Shown here: piece after piece, positions 14,716 to 31,780 of the stretch
How the letters are laid out: every line of letters starts with the position of its first letter
Position numbering within the stretch: the stretch's first letter is position 1
Assembly: GCF_008807075.1 (NCBI RefSeq)
Contig: NZ_CP035632.1
Coordinates: 2,542,001-2,606,000 of the forward strand
Direction of reading: 5' to 3'
Source of the DNA: Synechococcus sp. RSCCF101
GTDB lineage: Bacteria; Cyanobacteriota; Cyanobacteriia; PCC-6307; Cyanobiaceae
Length of the DNA stretch: 64,000 nucleotides
Translations under genes and position numbers: made by a program
Notes under the pieces: model-generated
Database searches by the model: none
The model's input: only the letters and a program-made list of their open reading frames with translations
Told to the model about the DNA's origin: nothing

Positions 14716-14727
14716 CTGCAACTGCAA

Positions 14728-14799
14728 CTCCCCGGGCGGGATTCGAACCTGCGACCAATCGATTAACAGTCGACCGCTCTACCGCTGAGCTACCGAGGA
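14728..14799 (-). tRNA. trnN-GUU: tRNA-Asn (anticodon GTT)
   Basis: A 72-base cloverleaf on the minus strand. Acceptor stem TCCTCGG pairs with CCGGGGA with one G-T wobble. D-arm AGCTCAGCGGTAGAGC, anticodon loop CTGTTAA with GTT, and T-arm loop GGTTCGAATCC are all present. The 3' CCA is not encoded, so it must be added after transcription. An intrinsic terminator follows directly. Confidence 0.97.
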
Positions 14800-14849
14800 A
14801 TCAGCGTGGCCAATGATACCTCCTGGCGGTGCGCCTCCAGCCCGTGGGC

Positions 14850-19390: not shown

Positions 19391-19769
19391 GATTCCCAGC
19401 TCTGGAGTCAGAACGGTAGGCGCTTACTGATCCTAGACTTGATGGGTATGCCTCTCGCCTGAGAGCAAGACGACGGCGACAGAGATGGTCATGGAGCTTG
19501 GATCGTTCCTGACCAAGCGCTGGAGGAAACTGCAGCTGGGCTCGCTGCGTGATGCCAACGCGCTTTCTCGCTCTCTCGAGCTGTCACAGCAATCGTCCCG
19601 ATGCAGCCTCAGCACGTCACCGCGTAGACGAGATGACGTCGTATCGCCTCATTCGCTTGCCTGTCGTTGCTGCTGTGCTTCCACACTCGCCTCGAGCCTG
19701 TTGAGCCGATGTCCAACCAAGTCCGTTCCAGACCATCCCTATCCTGCTCGGACCTTGAGTCAGGTCTGC
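19391..19769. other. Intergenic region without a supported gene
   Basis: 379 bases between the divergent GtrB-like and DUF2079 genes. An open frame of about 95 codons runs into the DUF2079 gene, but its residues look random (Ser/Arg/Cys-rich) and are unlike the family. It probably contains both promoters; I could not identify convincing -35/-10 pairs. Confidence 0.5.
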
Positions 19770-21395
19770 ATGAACGACCCCAGCCCATCAGGAGTGAACC
19801 GGCGTTGGCGCCTGCCTGCTCCAGTGATGGCCATGGCGGGAGCGTTCTTTCTGCTTTGCCTTGCGATTCAGATCTGGCGTCTTGAGAGCCTCACGGCCAC
19901 CTACGACCAGGCGCTATTCCTGCAGGAACTCTGGTCCACAGCCCAGGGGCGTCCCTTTGAGAGCACCCTGTCATCCGTGCTGTCGGCACCGGTGAAGCTT
20001 GGTGGTGATCTTCCCTGGGTTGGCTACCTCCACCTGGGCCAGCACTCCAACGTCCTCACGCTGCTGGTGGCGCCGCTGGTGGTGGTGCTCGGTGCCTGGG
20101 CGCTGCCGTTGACGCAGGTGACCGTGCTGACGGCGTCAGGATTGGTGCTCTGGCGGATCGCTGCCAGGCGGTTGCCTGAATCGCTTGCCCTCTGGATCAC
20201 GGCCGCCTATTTCCTCAGCGGAGCGGTGATCGGTCCGGCGATCGAGAACTTCCACGATCTCATCTGGCTGCCTCTGTTCGGTTTCCTTGTGGTGGAGGGG
20301 TTGCTGGAACGGAAGCACCGGCAGGTGGTCATCAGCGCGCTGCTGCTTCTGTTGGTGCGGGAAGACAGCGGCCTGGTGCTGTTCTCCATTGGGCTCTGGG
20401 CTCTGGTGCGTCAGCCGGGGGAGCGCCGGATGGGAATGAGCCTGATGGTGGCGGCCTTTCTCTGGGTGGTGCTGGTCACGGGCTGGATCCAGCCGATGGT
20501 CGATTCCTCGCTGTCTGATCGCTTCCTTCAGGAGAAGTTCGGGCATCTGGTGGAGGACGTGTCGGGCGGCACCCTCTCGGTGCTGCTCGGCATGGTTCGG
20601 AACCCTCTGGCTCTGCTGAAGACCCTGGGCTCCCCGCCCGGGGCGACGCTCGCTTTCCTTCTCGCGCTGACCCTGCCGCTGCTGTTCATCCCGCTGCTCT
20701 CGATCGATTCGGCATTGCTTGTGGCGGCCCCGCTGTTCATTGCTCTGGTGTCGCAGGGGCGTTCGGCCCTGTCTCCGACGCTGCGGTACGTGATGGCCGT
20801 GGTGCCGGGGCTCTATCTCGGCGCCATCCTCTGGTGGCAGCGCCATCGTGCGCTCTGGTCCCGGCGCTGGATCCGCCGCTGCTGGACCGGGCTCCTCTCC
20901 CTTGGGCTGGTTCTGACGGTGGTCGGGAACCCCAATCGAAGCTTCTCTGCCCTGGTTCCGGACAGTTTTTCGCCCTGGGTGCACATCACGCCGGCCGACA
21001 TGCTCCAACGGCGCGCTGCTGCGCTTGACGCGGTGGCCACGATCCCCCGGCAGGCCAGCGTTTCGGCCGATACGCCGCTGTTGCCGCTGCTGGCGCAACG
21101 CGAAGTGGCGATTCGGTTCCCGAAGTTCACCCGCTATCGCGACCGTGAGGGCGTGCCTCACTATGTGGACTGGGTGGTGGCGTTTCCCGGCTTCTACAGG
21201 CCTTACATGCCCCTGTTCCGAGACGAAACCCAGGCCTTCAAGCGCATCGGCGAGCGGATTCGCGCAGCGCTCAGGGATGGTGACTATCAGCTGGCCTACT
21301 GCAAGGACGGTGCCCTGGTGCTGAGCCGGGAACCGGTGTCTGATCCGCCGCCCGCCACCTGCCTTGACCGGGCGCTGGCCCCACCCGGCACCTGA
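19770..21395 (+). CDS. DUF2079 polytopic membrane protein
   Basis: A 541-residue integral membrane protein of DUF2079, a family with GT-C-like topology. N-terminal motifs shared with its paralogue at 21779-23425: ATYDQALFLQELWSTAQG, FESTLSS, LGQHSNVLTLLVAPL and LLVREDSGLVLF. A soluble C-terminal part contains SVSADTPLLPLLAQREVAIR and RYRDREGVPHYVDWV. I start at the ATG at 19770, just before the first membrane helix. A role in cell-surface glycosylation or lipid-linked sugar transfer is inferred from topology and the surrounding glycosyltransferases. Confidence 0.8.
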   Translation: MNDPSPSGVNRRWRLPAPVMAMAGAFFLLCLAIQIWRLESLTATYDQALFLQELWSTAQGRPFESTLSSVLSAPVKLGGDLPWVGYLHLGQHSNVLTLLVAPLVVVLGAWALPLTQVTVLTASGLVLWRIAARRLPESLALWITAAYFLSGAVIGPAIENFHDLIWLPLFGFLVVEGLLERKHRQVVISALLLLLVREDSGLVLFSIGLWALVRQPGERRMGMSLMVAAFLWVVLVTGWIQPMVDSSLSDRFLQEKFGHLVEDVSGGTLSVLLGMVRNPLALLKTLGSPPGATLAFLLALTLPLLFIPLLSIDSALLVAAPLFIALVSQGRSALSPTLRYVMAVVPGLYLGAILWWQRHRALWSRRWIRRCWTGLLSLGLVLTVVGNPNRSFSALVPDSFSPWVHITPADMLQRRAAALDAVATIPRQASVSADTPLLPLLAQREVAIRFPKFTRYRDREGVPHYVDWVVAFPGFYRPYMPLFRDETQAFKRIGERIRAALRDGDYQLAYCKDGALVLSREPVSDPPPATCLDRALAPPGT

Positions 21396-21519
21396 CGCGC
21401 CCTACGGCCACTTCCGTTACATTGAGCGGGTTCCGTCAGCAGTGGAGTGATCCGACCCCCCGGGGCCTGATCGCACGCTCCGCCGGCTGTCATTCATTCC
21501 CAATCTGGAGGAGGTGCCC

Positions 21520-21573
21520 GTGAGTCACAGTTGTTGCAAGCAGGGTCTGCTGATCGCGGAGAACGCCGTCTGA
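21520..21573 (+). CDS. Candidate 17-codon small ORF
   Basis: GTG start preceded at five-base spacing by GGAGGAGG (21507-21514), the strongest ribosome-binding site I noticed in the window. The peptide reads (V/M)SHSCCKQGLLIAENAV, then TGA. A second in-frame GTG lies at 21514. It lies in the 383-base gap between two convergent DUF2079 genes and is followed by a terminator at 21630-21664, so it may be an independent short transcript. I do not recognise the peptide. It may be a leader peptide, a small protein or chance. Confidence 0.35.
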   Translation: MSHSCCKQGLLIAENAV

Positions 21574-21629
21574 CCACGGCATCGAGTCCTTCGATCATTC
21601 GGTTCCGTGCCATAGCGGACCCGGCGAGA

Positions 21630-21664
21630 GCCCCCTGGTCCTCTGGATCAGGGGGCATCGTTTT
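21630..21664 (+). terminator. Intrinsic terminator with duplicated 3' arm
   Basis: Stem GCCCCCTG (21630-21637) with CAGGGGGC (21649-21656), 11-base loop, then ATCGTTTT. A second copy of the 3' arm lies within GATCAGGGGGCA at 21669-21680, so the 5' arm has two possible partners. The rest of the 21396-21778 gap shows nothing further. Confidence 0.65.
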
Positions 21665-21778
21665 GGCTGATCAGGGGGCAGTGGTTCGACCGATTGACGT
21701 CCCCTGAGGTCAACCGCCGATTCCCAGAGGCTTGCTGCCGGGCCGTCTCGCTGTGAGCCGTTCACGCTGCAGCGGGGA

Positions 21779-23425
21779 TCAGACCTCCGCCTGAAGCCGA
21801 GAGAGCAATCGCTTCAGATCCGCGTCCGCCTGCCCGGCTTCGGCGTCGTCCGGCGGATGGCGGCGGTGCTGCAGCACCACCACGCCGTCCTCGACGCGCA
21901 GCGGCCGGTAACGGTCGCTCAACTCGACAAGGGTGCGGATCGCCCTCTCCAGCTTGCGTCGGTCGCTGGGGAAGGCCCGGCCGTAATGGCGCAGCCAGCC
22001 CAGATCCACGGCGATCCAGTCCACCTCCCGCTCGATGCCCTGCCGGTCGCGATAGCGGTGTCCACGGGGAAAGCGCACCAGGGCCGGCCGTTGCGCCAGC
22101 CAGGGCACCAGCGGCGTGTTCGCCGAAACAGAGGCGTCCGGCGGGATCACCGCCAGGGCCCGCTGTGCCGCCCGGCCGTGCTGCCACTGGCGCGCCGGTG
22201 AGCTGTAGACCCAGGGCTGGATGCTGTCGGGGATCAGAAACGAGAGGCTGCGGTTCGGGTTGCTGGTGAGGGTGAAGAGCAGCGAGAGAACGATGCAGCC
22301 GAGCCACAGCGAACGCCAGCGCCGGGCCGGGACCCTGCCGCCGCGGCGGTGCCACCAGAACACCGTGCCGCTGAACAGGCCGGGCACCACCAGCAGGGTG
22401 TAGCGGATGTTGATCGAGAGGGGGTCGTTGTCCCCCTGGGCCAGGAACAGCCCCAGCAAGCTGGGGCCGGCCAGCAGCCAGCTGTCGATCGACACGAGCG
22501 GCACCAGCGCCAGCGGCAGGCTCTGGCCCAGCAGATAGAGCAGGGTCTGCAGCGGCGGCGACACCAGCTCCCGCAGCACCAGCACCGGCTGTGCCAGCAC
22601 GTGGCCCAGCACCTCCAGGCTGCTGGCCTGATCCCTTTCGCCCAGGTACTGGCCGAAGTTCTCGACCATGAAGCGGCGCGAGCTGTCTTCGCTGAACAGG
22701 GGCATCAGCACCGTGGTGCAGAGCAGCACCCAGCCACCTCCGTAGAGGGCGAGCAGGAGAGCCAGCCGCCAGCGCTCGCGCTGCCGCACCAGCATCCAGA
22801 TGGCGACGGCCACCAGCAGCACGCCGGTGTCCTCCCGGATCAGAGGGATCACCAGCGCTGCGATGGCGATGAGCCAGGTGCGCTGCTGGCGCAGGCCCAG
22901 CATCAGGGCGAAGAAGGCCAGCGGCAACTGGCAGAGGTCGGTGAAGTTGCCGAGGGTGGGCCCGATCAGGGCGTTGGCGCCGAAGTACGACCAGGCCACG
23001 AGGCGGGCCAGGACAGGGGCCAACAGGATTTCGGCCAGCCGGTGCAGCACCAGGCCCGCCCCGGTGATCAGACCCACCTGCACCAGCGGCAGGGCCCAGG
23101 CCCCCAGCAGCGCCACCAGCGGCGCCCAGAGCGCCAGCATCGGTGTGAAGTGCTGGCCAAGCCTCCGGTAGCCCAGCACAGGCAGGGCTCCGTCGTGAAC
23201 CACCGGTGTCGAGAGCTGGGACGAGAGCGTGCTCTCGAACCAGTGGCCCCGGGCCGTGTTCCAGAGCACCTGGAGGAAGATGCCCTGGTCGTAGCTGGCC
23301 GTGAGCACCTGCAGCCGCCACCAGTGCAGAGCCAGGGCCGTGATCGCGAAGAGGGCCGCCACCAGCCAGACCCGTCGTCGTTCGCGCTGCCGTTCCAGCC
23401 CGGTCCCGGTCGCCGGGTCCCTCAT
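21779..23425 (-). CDS. DUF2079 polytopic membrane protein, second copy
   Basis: A 548-residue paralogue of the protein at 19770-21395, in convergent orientation. Shared motifs: ASYDQGIFLQVLWNTARG, FESTLSSQLSTPVV, LGQHFTPMLALWAPL and IPLIREDTGVLLV. The C-terminal part has SVSANTPLVPWLAQRPALVR and RYRDRQGIEREVDWI. I choose the ATG at 23425, which overlaps the stop of the preceding GT39 gene as ATGA. It is the last gene of a four-gene minus-strand operon for surface-sugar transfer. The catalytic activity is unknown. Confidence 0.82.
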   Translation of the reverse strand: MRDPATGTGLERQRERRRVWLVAALFAITALALHWWRLQVLTASYDQGIFLQVLWNTARGHWFESTLSSQLSTPVVHDGALPVLGYRRLGQHFTPMLALWAPLVALLGAWALPLVQVGLITGAGLVLHRLAEILLAPVLARLVAWSYFGANALIGPTLGNFTDLCQLPLAFFALMLGLRQQRTWLIAIAALVIPLIREDTGVLLVAVAIWMLVRQRERWRLALLLALYGGGWVLLCTTVLMPLFSEDSSRRFMVENFGQYLGERDQASSLEVLGHVLAQPVLVLRELVSPPLQTLLYLLGQSLPLALVPLVSIDSWLLAGPSLLGLFLAQGDNDPLSINIRYTLLVVPGLFSGTVFWWHRRGGRVPARRWRSLWLGCIVLSLLFTLTSNPNRSLSFLIPDSIQPWVYSSPARQWQHGRAAQRALAVIPPDASVSANTPLVPWLAQRPALVRFPRGHRYRDRQGIEREVDWIAVDLGWLRHYGRAFPSDRRKLERAIRTLVELSDRYRPLRVEDGVVVLQHRRHPPDDAEAGQADADLKRLLSRLQAEV

Positions 23426-24959
23426 GGCCGACCCGCCGCCGCCAGAGGGATCACGTAGCTGCGGTCCTCCGCCGCGCAACCCGGTGCTGCGGCGCCCTCC
23501 GGGCAGAGCAGGTCCCGCAGCTCACTGCGCTGGCCGGAGTCGAGAGGGGCATGGCTTTCCTGCACCTCCCAGCTGCCGGCGATGTGGGTGGCGCCGGCCT
23601 CTTGCCACTCCTGCAGTCGGTCGGGGCTGACCCGGCCCGCCCGGGTCAGCCAGCCCTTGCGGTGAGCGAGGTACAGCAACGTGGGATCGCTGCCGGTCAC
23701 GCTCACGATCCGCTCGTCGGGGGCGGTGTGGTGTTGGATCAGCTCTGCGCTGTGCCAGACGGGCTGCCGCTGGGGTGCTTCCACCCGCCAGTAGTCGATG
23801 GTCAGGATGGTGAGGCTGATCAGCAGCCAGACCCCCAGCAGCAGCGCCGGGCCGCGGCGTAAACCCCGTGCGGCCGCCAGCGCCTGCCAGCGCAGCCAGC
23901 CGAGGCCGATCAGGGGGCAGGCGAACAGCATCAGCGGGAGCTGGTAGTACTCATGCACAGCGCTGGATTCGGGTGCCAGGGCCCCGGCGGCCAGTACCGC
24001 CGCCATCCCGGCCAGCAGCAGCCGCCTGGCCTCCCGCGATCCCGACGCTCCGATCCCCGGGCCCAGCGGCCTCAGGGGAGCCAGGATCCCCGCCCCAGCA
24101 GGGGAAGGCCGATCACGGCGAGGTTGCGCACCGTTATCCGCAGAAGCAGGTCCCCCCAGTAGCGAGGCGACGCTAAATCGATCCAGCTGTAGCGGTTCGC
24201 CTCGGCGCCCCAGAACCCGAAGCTCAGGCCCGTGCTCTGCCCCAGCTGGTGGGCATGGGCATACCAGGCGGCGGTGACGAGGGCGGCGCTCAGACCGAAC
24301 AGCCAGGGGAGCGGCCGCAGCGGGATGCGGCGCCAGGAGGGCGCATCCCAGCTGAGCAACAGCAGCAGAGGCAGCCCCAGCCAGACCACGGGCAGCAGCT
24401 TGACCAGCAGGCAGCCGCTGAAGCCCAGCCAGCAGAACAGCAGATCGCGGCGCCGGCCCCGATCCCTCCAGGCCAGCGCCCGCTCCAGGCACCAGGCCGC
24501 CAGCAGCATCAGGGTGGCCTCCGGCTGCACGGTGCGTCCGTAAAACACCGGGATCGGCAGGAACGCATAGCTCAGGGCACCCCACCAGCCGGCCCGTGCC
24601 CCCAGCAGGCGCTCCCCGATCCGCGCCACCAGAACGATCGTGAGCACACTGGCCAGCACCGAGAGCCCCCGGGCCAGCCAGACCTGCACGCCGCTCAGCT
24701 GGTACAGCAGGGCCACCGCCCACGAGTAGATGGGGAAATCGGTTTCGGCGAATCCCGGCCCGGCTCCGCTCCAGTCGACACGGGGCAGCCACAGCGCCAT
24801 GCCCTGCTCGAGATAGTTGCGGGCGATGGCGGCGGTGTCGGCCTGCCGCCAGCTGTGCACGCCGAGGATCGGCGCCTGCAGGTTCACCAGCCGCAGCGCC
24901 AGGCCGAGACCGAGCGGGATCCACAGCGGCGGCGCGGTGCCTCGGGACGCGGGGCTCAT
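23422..24959 (-). pseudogene. GT39/ArnT-like glycosyltransferase, frame disrupted
   Basis: Membrane glycosyltransferase using lipid-linked sugar. The first frame (24959 to 24072) starts MSPASRGTAPPLW, has LGVHSWRQADTAAIARNYLE and TDFPIYSWAVALLYQ, and stops after LPLLGRGSWLP. The second frame continues the same protein: ILAPLRPL, then AVHEYYQLPLMLFACPLIGL and IVSVTGSDPTLLYLAHRKGW, ending at 23422. Adding one G to the G-run (plus-strand Cs 24088-24091 or 24093-24096) joins them into about 512 residues. Both joints of the operon are ATGA overlaps, as expected for an intact gene. Probably a sequence error; real loss or slippage switching remain possible. Confidence 0.8.
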
Positions 24960-27905: not shown

Positions 27906-29609
27906 ATGAAACTCTTCCAGCGACTGCTGGTGGCACCTGCGGCCCTGGGCCTTCTGGCTCCTGTGGCCGCCGGTGTGGCCGGCAGCGCCAACGCCTCCGA
28001 GCTGAACCTGGACGGCGTCGGCGACTACTCCAGCTCCCGTGAGCAGGTCACCAGCATCTCCCAGTTCTCGGACGTCTACCCGACCGACTGGGCCTACCAG
28101 GCGCTCTCGAACCTGATCGAGCGCTACGGCTGCGTGGCCGGCTATCCGGACGGCACCTACCGCGGCGGCCGTGCCATGACCCGCTTCGAGGCGGCGGCAC
28201 TGCTGAACGCCTGCCTGGATCGGATCACCGAGGTGACCGACGAACTCAAGCGCCTGATGAAGGAGTTCGAGAAGGAACTCGCCATCCTCAAGGGCCGCGT
28301 CGATGGCCTCGAGGCCCGCGTGGGTGAGCTGGAGGCCAACCAGTTCTCCACCACCACCAAACTCAATGGTGTCGCCTACATGGTGATCGGCGCCAACAGC
28401 TTCGGCGGTGACGCTGAGCAAGGCGCGCGAGATCTCGTCCTCGGCACCAACGCCTCTGATGGCGATGGTGGTTTCGTGACCAAAGGCTTTGGTTCCGATC
28501 GTGCTGAGGCTGCCGCTGCTGCCTCCGGTGGCACGGTCTTCAACTACGACCTCCGGATCGATCTGGACACCAGCTTCACCGGTAAGGACCTGCTGCGGAC
28601 CCGTCTGCGCGCCGGCAACTTCGGCGACTCTCCCTTCGGTGGCGGCGGCTATGTGGGCCTGACCGGCATGGAGGTTGCGTTTGAGGAAGACGGCGACGAC
28701 ACCGTCAACATCAACCGCCTCTTCTACCAGTTCCCCGTCGGTGAGAACTGGACGGTGACGGCCGGTGCTCGTGTCCGTCAGGACGACATGCTGGCTGTGT
28801 GGCCTTCGGCTTACCCCGATGACACCATCCTCGACATCTTCACCTACGCCGGTGCTCCGGGTGCCTACAACCTGACCCTCGGCGGAGGCGGTGGTCTCTG
28901 GTGGGAGAGCGGCGACTTCAGCATCAGCGCCCTGTATGTGTCGGGTAACGCCGACGACGGCAACCCCAACACCGGCGGTATCGCCACGGACGGCGCTGCC
29001 AGCACCGGTACCGTTCAGCTGGCCTATGCACCCAGCAACTGGGGACTGGCTGCGGCCTACACCTACAGCTCCGGCGACAATGGCGCCGGCATCTACGCAG
29101 GCAACGGCACTCCTCTGGCCAACACCCTTTCGGCCGCTGGCCGCACCAATGCCGTTGGTGTGAGCGCCTGGTGGGAGCCCGAGAACCCGGGCTGGATCCC
29201 TGGCATCAGCGCAGGCTGGGGTCTGAACAGTGTCGACACCAACGACGACACCGCGTTCGGTACCATCATCGACAGTGGTACGTCCCAGTCCTGGTACGTG
29301 GGTCTCCAGTGGAAGGATGCCTTCCTCAAGGGCAACACCCTTGGCATGGCTGTGGGTCAGGCCACCTTCGTCACCAACCTCGAAGTTGACGACGACTTCG
29401 ACGATGTCCTCACCGACTGGGCTGGCGACGGCAACTACGCCTGGGAGTGGTGGTACAAGTTCCAGGTGACCGACAACATCTCGCTCACCCCCGCCATCTA
29501 CTACCTCAGCCGCCCCTACGGTCAGCTGACCAACGGCACCATTGACGGTGATCGCGACGACACCTTCAACAACTTCGGTGGCCTTGTGAAGGCAACCTTC
29601 AAGTTCTGA
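27906..29609 (+). CDS. SLH-domain outer-membrane porin (copy 1)
   Basis: Cyanobacterial SomA/iron-uptake-type porin, 567 residues. Signal peptide MKLFQRLLVAPAALGLLAPV ending at NAS|E; SLH domain around residues 45-100 (SDVYPTDWAYQALSNLIERY, GYPDGTYRGGRAMTRFEAAA); a coiled-coil with KRLMKEFEKELAILKGRVDG; then a beta-barrel ending in F (GGLVKATFKF). The SLH domain should bind peptidoglycan-linked polymer. Upstream, TTGACG (27801-27806) and an inverted repeat GTGCC-TAGT-GGCAC (27817-27830) are candidate promoter parts. Residues 47-151 are almost identical at DNA level to copy 2. Confidence 0.92.
   Translation: MKLFQRLLVAPAALGLLAPVAAGVAGSANASELNLDGVGDYSSSREQVTSISQFSDVYPTDWAYQALSNLIERYGCVAGYPDGTYRGGRAMTRFEAAALLNACLDRITEVTDELKRLMKEFEKELAILKGRVDGLEARVGELEANQFSTTTKLNGVAYMVIGANSFGGDAEQGARDLVLGTNASDGDGGFVTKGFGSDRAEAAAAASGGTVFNYDLRIDLDTSFTGKDLLRTRLRAGNFGDSPFGGGGYVGLTGMEVAFEEDGDDTVNINRLFYQFPVGENWTVTAGARVRQDDMLAVWPSAYPDDTILDIFTYAGAPGAYNLTLGGGGGLWWESGDFSISALYVSGNADDGNPNTGGIATDGAASTGTVQLAYAPSNWGLAAAYTYSSGDNGAGIYAGNGTPLANTLSAAGRTNAVGVSAWWEPENPGWIPGISAGWGLNSVDTNDDTAFGTIIDSGTSQSWYVGLQWKDAFLKGNTLGMAVGQATFVTNLEVDDDFDDVLTDWAGDGNYAWEWWYKFQVTDNISLTPAIYYLSRPYGQLTNGTIDGDRDDTFNNFGGLVKATFKF
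28044..28358 (+). repeat. Conserved SLH/coiled-coil tract, copy A
   Basis: This 315-base segment matches 30116-30430 with only four differences (at 28067, 28229, 28304 and 28339 by my reading), while flanking porin sequence differs strongly. It encodes the SLH domain and coiled-coil. Confidence 0.85.
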
Positions 29610-29693: not shown

Positions 29694-29962
29694 TTGGCCT
29701 GGATCGAATGCCCAGTCTGTTGCTTGCGTTGAGCCTGGGCGGCTTGACGACCTTGCTGTTTGGCTCCATTCTGAGTCTGCTTCAGTTGACAGTCTGCGGC
29801 ACGTGGCAGACTTCAAGGAATCAGAAGTTAAGGCCAGTTAAAGATGAGTTTGTGCGTTCTTGATGGACGCAGTCTCAGCTGGAATGCCTGCAATCTTTGT
29901 TATTCCAGATAAGGTGTTGGCGGGCATTTTTGCCCGCAATCTTCAATTGGTGTGAGGACCCA

Positions 29963-31780
29963 ATGAAACTCTTCCAGCGTCTGCTGGTTGCTCCCGCTGC
30001 CCTGGGCCTGCTGGCTCCCGTGGCGGCCGGGCTGCCCAGTGCCGCTTCCGCCGGTGAGCTGAACCTCGATGGAGTCAGTGCTTACAGTGTTGACGAGGAG
30101 GATCTGGAATACGACCAGGTCACCAGCATCTCCCAGTTTTCGGACGTCTACCCGACCGACTGGGCCTACCAGGCGCTCTCGAACCTGATCGAGCGCTACG
30201 GCTGCGTGGCCGGCTATCCGGACGGCACCTACCGCGGCGGCCGTGCCATGACCCGCTTCGAGGCGGCGGCACTGCTGAACGCCTGCCTGGATCGGATCAC
30301 TGAGGTGACCGACGAACTCAAGCGCCTGATGAAGGAGTTCGAGAAGGAACTCGCCATCCTCAAGGGCCGCGTCGACGGCCTCGAGGCCCGCGTGGGTGAG
30401 CTGGAGGCCACCCAGTTCTCCACCACCACCGTGCTCAAGGGCAAGAACACCTTTGTGATGGGTGCGGTGAACGGCTCGGGCGACAACCCCGATGGCACCC
30501 TCGACAGCTACCTGCTGGCCGGTGGCCGCCAGGAGGAACTCTTCCCTGCGGTGGGCTCGGATGAGTACAACGCGGAGGAAGGCGCCTTCACCTTCAGCTA
30601 CGACGCCCGCATCGAGCTGAAGACCAGCTTCACCGGCAAGGACCTGCTGTTCACCCGCCTGCGCGCCAACAACTTCGACAACGCCTTCAACGGCGACGGT
30701 CTGGCCGGCAACCTGACCAAGCTGGACATCGCGGACGACACCAGCAATACCGTCAAGATCAACCGTCTATACTACAAGTTCCCGCTTGGCGATTCCTTCA
30801 CGGCCATCGTCGGCCCGGTGGCCCGGAACACGGAATCCCTGGCCATGAAGCCGTCGGTCTACGGCAAGAAGGGCGACAAGATCCTTGATTTCTTCGGTGG
30901 CACCTGGGGCACCCCCGGTGTCTACAACAAGGAGACCGGTGGCCTGATCGGTGCCTACTGGAAGCAGAAGGTCGACAAGGGAGATCCTGCCTTCAGCGTG
31001 TCGGTCAACTACGTGGCCGACAGCGGTGAAGCCAGCGACGGCAACCCCAACACCGGCGGCTTCATGACCGATAACTCCGAGGGCAACATCCTTGCCCAGC
31101 TGGGTTACGGCAACAAGCAGTGGGGCCTGGCCCTGGGCTATCGCTACGGCCAGTGCCAGGCGAAGTTCCGCAACGGCACCGACTTCGTGGCGGCCAACAG
31201 CTTCTGGCAGGACTGCGAGAAGATCACCGACATCACGGTGGATGCCGACGGCAACTTCGATGGCTTCGAGCGGGGCGGCCGCAGCGACGCCGATTCCCAC
31301 AGCTTCGCGGTGAACGCCTACTGGCAGCCGAAGGAGGCCGGCTGGATTCCCTCCATCAGCGTCGGCTGGGCCATCTCCTCGCTCAACGGCAAGCAGGTGG
31401 ATCTGGATTCCGACAGCTATACCTACATCCTCAACGGCACCAGCTACACGGTGGATGCCGATGACATCGAGGATCGCGTGCCCAACGAGTTCCAGAGCTG
31501 GATGGTCGGCCTGCAGTGGCGCGACGTGTTCATCGAAGGCAACGACCTCGGCTTCGCCGTGGGTCAGCCCCAGTTCGTGACCTCGCTCAAGGGCGGTGAC
31601 ACCCCCTTCGATGGCAACTACGCCTGGGAGCTCTGGTATCAGTTCCAGGTGACCGACAACATCGCCATCACTCCGGCGCTGTTCTACCTGAGCCGCCCGC
31701 AGGGCAACCTCACCGGCCCCACCTACGACAACAACTTCTCCGTCTTCGGCGGCCTGGTTCAGACCACCTTCAAGTTCTGA
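29963..31780 (+). CDS. SLH-domain outer-membrane porin (copy 2)
   Basis: A 605-residue paralogue of the preceding porin. Signal peptide MKLFQRLLVAPAALGLLAPV, cleavage near ASA|GE, then SLH domain, coiled-coil and a barrel that ends in GGLVQTTFKF with the terminal Phe recognised by the BAM machinery. The barrel region differs from copy 1 (for example YRYGQCQAKFRNGTDFVAAN with a Cys, paired with SFWQDCEK), so pore selectivity may differ. The start context GTGAGGACCCAATGAAACTC is nearly the same as in copy 1. An intrinsic terminator follows at 31814. Confidence 0.92.
   Translation: MKLFQRLLVAPAALGLLAPVAAGLPSAASAGELNLDGVSAYSVDEEDLEYDQVTSISQFSDVYPTDWAYQALSNLIERYGCVAGYPDGTYRGGRAMTRFEAAALLNACLDRITEVTDELKRLMKEFEKELAILKGRVDGLEARVGELEATQFSTTTVLKGKNTFVMGAVNGSGDNPDGTLDSYLLAGGRQEELFPAVGSDEYNAEEGAFTFSYDARIELKTSFTGKDLLFTRLRANNFDNAFNGDGLAGNLTKLDIADDTSNTVKINRLYYKFPLGDSFTAIVGPVARNTESLAMKPSVYGKKGDKILDFFGGTWGTPGVYNKETGGLIGAYWKQKVDKGDPAFSVSVNYVADSGEASDGNPNTGGFMTDNSEGNILAQLGYGNKQWGLALGYRYGQCQAKFRNGTDFVAANSFWQDCEKITDITVDADGNFDGFERGGRSDADSHSFAVNAYWQPKEAGWIPSISVGWAISSLNGKQVDLDSDSYTYILNGTSYTVDADDIEDRVPNEFQSWMVGLQWRDVFIEGNDLGFAVGQPQFVTSLKGGDTPFDGNYAWELWYQFQVTDNIAITPALFYLSRPQGNLTGPTYDNNFSVFGGLVQTTFKF
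30116..30430 (+). repeat. Conserved SLH/coiled-coil tract, copy B
   Basis: Partner of 28044-28358, with four differences in 315 bases; three are third-position silent changes and the last changes Asn to Thr. Confidence 0.85.

Follow-up and report, generated by a model that had tools for sequence, protein, structure and literature searches.

The window, that is the whole 64,000-nt stretch of Synechococcus sp. RSCCF101 DNA analysed here, contains two DUF2079 membrane-protein genes that face each other, and the gap between them holds a predicted autonomous RNA of 235 nt on the forward strand, whose start near 21430 is a guess (Table 1). Along this strand a -10-like box is followed by a covarying 5' hairpin (H1), a ribosome-binding site, a 17-codon frame, a long central helix (H2) and a terminator. 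The first-pass annotation had pointed to a ribosome site, a 17-codon frame ended by TGA and a hairpin with a T tail in a gap between convergent genes, and all of these elements are present in the sequence. It had placed the unit at 21507-21664. One of our covariance models, R2, aligns exactly there and this stretch is the core of the predicted RNA, but the element begins further upstream, the match of the other model, R1, covering 21403-21665. At the level of sequence the observation is confirmed, and the element is larger than had been described.

Table 1. Positions in the window of the parts of the predicted RNA and of other genes discussed
Feature	Position	Strand	Basis or remark
tRNA-Asn (GTT)	14727-14800	-	
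DUF2079 gene	19485-21395	+	
-10-like box TACATT, putative promoter	21418-21423	+	sequence
Predicted RNA	~21430-21665	+	start guessed
5' hairpin H1	21435-21491	+	RNAalifold and pair counts, 52 sequences
Ribosome-binding site GGAGGAGGTG	21507-21516	+	sequence
17-codon ORF	21520-21573	+	GTG start 21520, TGA stop 21571-21573
H2 5' arm, central helix	21543-21568	+	inside frame, end of codon 8 to codon 17
H2 3' arm	21600-21622	+	21601-21622 able to self-fold instead
Extended terminator hairpin H3 with T tail	21623-21664	+	hairpin scan, pair counts
Terminator-like hairpin proper	21630-21656	+	TTTT runs to 21664
DUF2079 gene	21779-23479	-	
SLH/OprB porin gene	27906-29609	+	~6.2 kb past RNA; Pfam OprB and SLH, tblastn; start by eye
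Second SLH/OprB porin gene	29897-31780	+	~8.2 kb past RNA; Pfam

In the -10-like box the first T, the A and the last T are at least 90 per cent conserved among 52 aligned sequences; a simple sigma-70 scan found no two-hexamer site. The hairpin scan alone is weak, with 2 sites versus a mean of 1.2 in shuffles, and the fold of 21480-21670 exceeds shuffles in stability (z -2.43; 2 of 200 shuffles equal). The peptide of the frame in the window RNA reads V/M-SHSCCKQGLLIAENAV. A DNA search finds a single copy of the element in the source genome.

Distribution within and beyond the Cyanobiaceae

A 181-nt stretch of the locus is matched in 211 of 400 Cyanobiaceae genomes (E<=0.1) and the 17-residue peptide in 164 of the same 400 (E<=1). 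Covariance model R1, built from 52 sequences, matches 203 of the 400 (E<=0.01), or 146 of 251 when genomes of good quality are counted. These 211 and 203 matches, together with the alignment of R2 to the core of the element, show conservation that exceeds chance, unlike the hairpin scan alone. A search pattern in which part of the site, an A/GTG start and the beginning of the helix are fixed, with frame length and stop left free, gave 82 distinct picocyanobacterial sequences including that of the window; instances without 125 nt upstream or without a recognised terminator had been excluded before the 123-instance set. In named genomes the pattern scan returned 72 contigs, among them those of Synechococcus WH7803 and RCC307, Vulcanococcus, Cyanobium and Prochlorococcus sp. 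MIT 0701. More than one R1 match was found in four genomes (G034, G229, G311 and G342). Since the R1 search scored the best four candidates per genome and the R2 search the best six, copy numbers from both are in principle lower bounds. The second copy in G034 (L152, 9318-9588, minus strand) lies 5.1 kb from the intact one and is decayed: it matches R1 with site and frame gone.

No R1 match was found in the other half of the 400-genome sample. Among the 20 R1-negative genomes listed (177 more are negative), 19 measure 1.0-1.9 Mb and one, G047, 3.0 Mb. Further small genomes, of genera g18 and g40, gave no match in the class-wide R2 search, and a weak R2 match in the small Prochlorococcus-type genome G039 looked spurious, having neither site nor frame. 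Spread by phages or plasmids was considered and rejected, as the Cyanobiaceae form was not found in viral contigs (searched with the exact pattern), phage records or plasmids. One contig labelled 'MAG: Bifidobacterium breve' (L086, CALPNT020000072.1) carries the cyanobacterial RNA; its neighbour genes cluster with picocyanobacterial contigs, and the label looks wrong or the bin contaminated.

Beyond the Cyanobiaceae, R1 gives weak matches in further cyanobacterial families, and one genome that it matches there we take to be S. elongatus PCC 6301. Thirteen of the weakly matching loci were read singly. All have a strong site (mostly AGGAGGTGATGCCC) and a frame that is 17, 23 or 24 codons long, and a T-rich terminator is present where the sequence was followed far enough, with deviations in L190 and L191. 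Model R2, built from 14 non-Cyanobiaceae sequences only, matches 249 of 291 genomes of the class, or 226 of 261 if good ones are counted; of the 249, 229 lie outside the Cyanobiaceae. Its E-values reach 2e-89, and a second match was seen in two genomes only (G436 and G588). It recovers the element of the window at E 1.6e-8 in the genome search and finds 20 Cyanobiaceae genomes at E 7e-15 to 2e-6. R1 in turn finds the seeds of R2 at E-values from 2e-11 to 0.05, three seeds doing no better than 0.02-0.05. As R2 descends from R1 hits, the independence of the two models is incomplete. Genomes matched by R2 presumably include Gloeobacter violaceus, Gloeobacter kilaueensis and Thermosynechococcus BP-1, and some sizeable genomes (G414, G424, G431 and G432) are without a match.

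For the comparisons below, 130 outside sequences were taken from the 229 hits, namely 30 returned loci and 100 further listed R2 matches, a set in which weak members are under-represented because it was drawn from the listed matches. Thirty weaker or deeper loci were also read, and in 28 of these the frame-calling script gives 17-24 codons. For L343 it gave 47 codons, though by eye an in-frame start that yields 24 codons follows the usual site, and for L329 no frame was found under the site filter. Three reduced forms of family f23 (L356, L357 and L358) keep a GGAGGTGATG site and a frame of 22-23 codons; by eye the central helix and the usual terminator seem lost from them, and they could show which part is dispensable.

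The predicted RNA is ancient, present in most of the cyanobacterial genomes searched and nearly always once per genome. A chance frame is ruled out by conservation both in genomes and of frame length. Conservation likewise supports the proposal of the first-pass annotation that this is an independent unit with its own terminator; the outcome that it had named as contrary evidence, a frame or ribosome site unconserved in relatives, was looked for and did not occur.

The short frame and the helix that contains it

The small frame is maintained, as had been supposed. It has 17 codons in all 82 pattern-selected picocyanobacterial sequences, the window's included, and in 29 of 30 weaker, model-selected Cyanobiaceae loci, L167 having 10 codons. 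In the 130 outside loci, where the script prefers frames with the short motifs of the family, it counts 23 codons in 121, 24 in five, 17 in three and 16 in one, and starts with ATG in 128 and GTG in two. Its position relative to the helix hardly moves: from the start codon to the helix start GGGT there are 23 nt in 126 of these loci and 26 nt in four, and from GGGT to the stop 46 nt in 125, 49 in one, 28 in three and 25 in one. As a control, the linker after the stop takes 44 distinct lengths in the same loci, with phases of 50:39:27 and 14 undefined; the Cyanobiaceae control, from stop to GGTT, gives phases of 29:6:47. At three loci (L068, L080 and L107) everything 3' of the frame has been rebuilt and TAG replaces TGA, the frame still has 17 codons, and the rebuilt 3' half pairs with the frame in the predicted fold using different nucleotides.

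Within the Cyanobiaceae (alignment A2, 52 of 56 representatives), both sides have changed in 15 of 18 pairs of H1 and in 10 of 17 pairs of H3 (52 sequences). H2 shows compensatory changes in 0 of 17 pairs, and gives no compensatory evidence there because the helix is nearly invariant. Outside the family alignment A4 holds 14 of 15 sequences, and in the larger alignment A6 of 100 sequences, which was fitted to the model and favours the structure of the model, three helices with codons 11-21 as their 5' arm have both-side changes in 17 of 21 pairs. In these 100 sequences 94.7, 98.7 and 99.3 per cent of cells are paired in the three frame helices, and the whole-structure values for outside sequences were reached by none of 500 shuffles. 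A start-codon hairpin with a helix of at least 7 pairs occurs in 80 of the 130 outside loci; the 82 Cyanobiaceae sequences form at most 6 pairs, and the hairpin was rejected as a universal part. Comparison across genomes establishes the predicted RNA with its helices, frame, ribosome site and terminator.

The residues are kept far less strictly. Codon changes inferred on a tree from the RNA outside the frame (121 sequences) fall on codon positions 1, 2 and 3 as 224:233:269, and in the 23-codon set 500 nonsynonymous against 226 synonymous changes give no support to the idea that the peptide is the main thing selected. At codon 16 the Arg codon CGG stands opposite G in 55 sequences and the Trp codon TGG opposite A in 18, the combination of TGG and G being seen in 2; predicted structure outranks the residue at this position, the exchange of Arg for Trp following base pairing. 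Codons 2, 6-8, 10 and 12-15 change their residue more often than not. The Cys pair, to which the first-pass annotation had attached meaning, occurs in only 5 of 82 picocyanobacterial peptides, with residue 6 being F, S, L, C, K, Q or M. Coding constraint appears weak but not absent, because the synonymous share is highest in the true frame (210/638 versus 157/638 and 129/638 in the other two), and there is room for a peptide role because codons 19-23 (AGAVL) lean synonymous, with 47 synonymous versus 29 nonsynonymous changes.

An mRNA for a bioactive micro-peptide, in which the RNA structure only protects or times the peptide, would find support in these last two results, in the presence of the frame in all 82 and all 130 selected sequences, and in shared motifs: of the 130 outside peptides 113 contain AGA and 86 contain LCAGA, and RLCAGA occurs also at four loci of a Gloeobacter-type group (L352-L355). 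Against it stand the residue-changing codons, the dependence of codon 16 on base pairing and the rarity of the Cys pair, and also the frames of Cyanobiaceae and of the S. elongatus type, which end at codon 17 and lack the AGAVL-type C-terminus. We regard a micro-peptide gene as unlikely. The first-pass annotation had left the choice between a small protein and a peptide-coding regulatory RNA; of the two, the latter fits better.

Fold prediction gives a less uniform picture. For the window RNA started at 21430 the computed probability is 0.67 for H2 and 0.31 for a self-hairpin of the 3' arm, and the means over 53 of 56 Cyanobiaceae representatives are 0.68 and 0.24, H2 being above 0.5 in 37 of the 53 and the self-hairpin in 12. 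Outside the family the helix probability averages 0.65 and is above 0.5 in 79 of 100 sequences. The minimum-energy fold from 21430 is without H2: its 3' arm is already folded on itself when the frame is free, so that blocking the frame leaves that part of the best fold unchanged. With a start at 21480 the best fold contains H2, and with a start at 21507 H2 is nearly lost; because of this difference among starts the prediction depends on the true 5' end. The Cyanobiaceae test of the self-hairpin used a pattern that already demanded both halves and that occurs in 52 of 56 sequences. The self-hairpin is not favoured outside the family (mean z 0.16, 92 sequences), so that a common second shape is not established, and a 3'-arm hairpin common to all cyanobacteria was rejected on the same result. 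The predicted ensembles of Cyanobiaceae hold both shapes, which we count in favour of a fold gated by translation.

Known RNAs, neighbouring genes and possible function

Three Rfam scans, of the window, the RNA region and 10 relatives, were negative for a known RNA family. With Rfam 15 only a tRNA reached the gathering threshold in the whole window, in which a lone tRNA-Asn is the sole tRNA found. For the RNA region at E<=5 the best match is aspS, on the other strand (E 0.33; 20.3 bits against a threshold of 42.5), and at E<=1 the 10 relatives gave one miRNA match, below threshold. Downstream-peptide/Yfr6 (RF01704) gave no match at gathering level or at E<=5, and 6S RNA (RF00013) none in the window, the 6S gene of the source genome lying elsewhere (982552-982736).

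The closest named RNAs are Yfr6/Downstream-peptide, Yfr103 and the dual-function small RNAs. Genome G215, which we take to be Synechococcus CC9605, has one R1 match with the four best candidates scored. Yfr103 is an abundant ncRNA of 290-328 nt with seven paralogs in strain CC9605, and resembles our element in being a structured RNA that stands alone, in marine Synechococcus and in some Prochlorococcus (PMC5069720); the window RNA would measure about 235 nt if started near 21430, and copy number, one match in G215 versus seven paralogs, argues against identity. Yfr6 of picocyanobacteria is, according to PMC2864571, a structured RNA that measures about 250 nt and carries a short frame, and is of similar size and make-up; its structure lies 5' of the frame, whereas here the main helix contains the frame. 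Norf4 of Synechocystis, likewise a conserved short cyanobacterial frame in a longer RNA, is excluded by its 31 residues, its predicted membrane region and its absence in alpha-cyanobacteria (PMC5126843). Dual-function small RNAs of the SgrS/SgrT type have, like the predicted element, a promoter and a terminator of their own and a short frame with a ribosome site (PMC5126843 and general background). The element differs from them in that its frame overlaps the main helix and no pairing target was found among the tested neighbours. With regard to a possible independent transcript of this kind, terminator and -10 box are conserved and the neighbours at part of the loci are convergent or unrelated. 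Passages with matching terms in the main text of PMC8632094, PMC11109978 and PMC5341163 hold no description of the RNA. No such description was met in the literature searched as a whole, in which subscription papers were few; the transcript may be listed, undiscussed, in studies of primary transcriptomes. Novelty here means without an Rfam 15 match and absent from the literature searched, not never seen.

A pterin-4a-carbinolamine dehydratase gene and/or an SLH/OprB porin gene lies downstream on the same strand in 84 of the 130 outside loci (both genes in 41, porin only in 33, dehydratase only in 10; the Pfam names of neighbours were tested on four proteins). Of the 72 named Cyanobiaceae loci, 28 have a porin hit within 5.2 kb, and in each of these the nearest hit is downstream on the same strand; 21 of the others gave no porin hit with more than 2.5 kb of downstream sequence, and 23 have shorter sequence. 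Two porin genes follow the RNA in the window at greater distance (Table 1). The clusters that flank the element in relatives resemble, and by resemblance only, DUF2079 and ArnT-type genes. The order of RNA, dehydratase and porin looks like an old arrangement that was later loosened, and the porins as regulated genes are a lead only. No base-pairing signal was detected to porin start regions (mean z -0.17, n=62) or to those of the dehydratase (mean z -0.28, n=45), in a test against mononucleotide shuffles that covered the start regions of neighbouring genes of these two kinds, and base pairing with these sites was dropped as a candidate.

Leader-peptide attenuators of the trp, erm and tnaC type have a short frame whose translation opens a helix, and then a terminator. 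The element is built alike, in that translation would open its helix and a terminator follows, and it might be, or have been, a cis-acting leader that makes read-through of the terminator into a downstream dehydratase and porin operon depend on whether the frame is translated. The 84 loci with such genes and the constant orientation of the nearest porin in Cyanobiaceae agree with this. At the remaining 46 of 130 outside loci, however, neither gene is in reach, and the next ORF of at least 80 codons is convergent in 21 of the 130; in the window, too, the next gene downstream is the convergent DUF2079 gene and not a regulated gene on the same strand. Neither gene was found beside the element at the two Gloeobacter-type loci and the one Thermosynechococcus-type locus checked. 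No antiterminator was found, the alternative 3' hairpin of Cyanobiaceae leaving the terminator intact and no other alternative to the terminator being detected. A cis-acting leader seems improbable to us. It is a good deal harder to believe in a ribosome-binding RNA that titrates 30S subunits, with the extended anti-16S site doing the work and the frame merely following it: the site has a continuous match of 10-12 nt to the complement of what we take to be the 16S 3' end in 118 of the 130 outside loci, but only 8 nt in 79 of the 82 Cyanobiaceae sequences (7 nt in three), and the fixed phase of the frame and the covarying helix would go unexplained. A purely non-coding structured RNA with an accidental frame, suggested by strong structural covariation beside weak residue conservation, is disfavoured to the point of being scarcely credible, given that linkers outside the frame drift and its start, stop and phase do not, and that the lineage with a rebuilt 3' half retained its 17 codons.

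The explanation that we prefer, and to which we give about an even chance, is not a peptide gene but a structured small RNA gated by translation, which would have a promoter and a terminator of its own and normally occurs once per genome; the interpretation offered in the first-pass annotation is to this extent partly supported. The RNA is probably both transcribed and translated. A ribosome would bind the strong site and translate the short frame. Since the central helix takes its 5' arm from the second half of the frame, a ribosome has to open this helix in order to translate, and would free its 3' arm, which in Cyanobiaceae may self-fold as an alternative; the free RNA could hold the helix closed. 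An RNA with a translated and an untranslated shape would report translation or be controlled by it. We infer that translation switches the shape of the RNA and that the released 3' arm, or the changed RNA, acts on something else. Gating by translation is the most likely common principle, although we would hold it only as firmly as we would doubt it, and the computed fold probabilities left this estimate as it was.

A broader reading is more tentative, and we lean somewhat against it: a riboregulator that goes back to the common ancestor of the oxygenic cyanobacteria, with a helix built of the codons of its short frame and opened by the ribosome, may have served all through the cyanobacteria as a translation sensor that stood for long beside the outer-membrane porins and may still govern them. 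The same reading would have it normally in one copy in each genome and lost from some lineages, among them Prochlorococcus types with small genomes. A widespread, mostly single-copy cyanobacterial RNA without a family in Rfam 15 is rare, and its presence in laboratory models, namely a genome of the S. elongatus PCC 6301 type, Synechococcus WH7803 and RCC307, makes its function testable at once. If translation does gate the fold, the RNA would offer a natural system in which a frame and a helix have shared their nucleotides over the age of the cyanobacteria, and would let one ask why some lineages could drop it.
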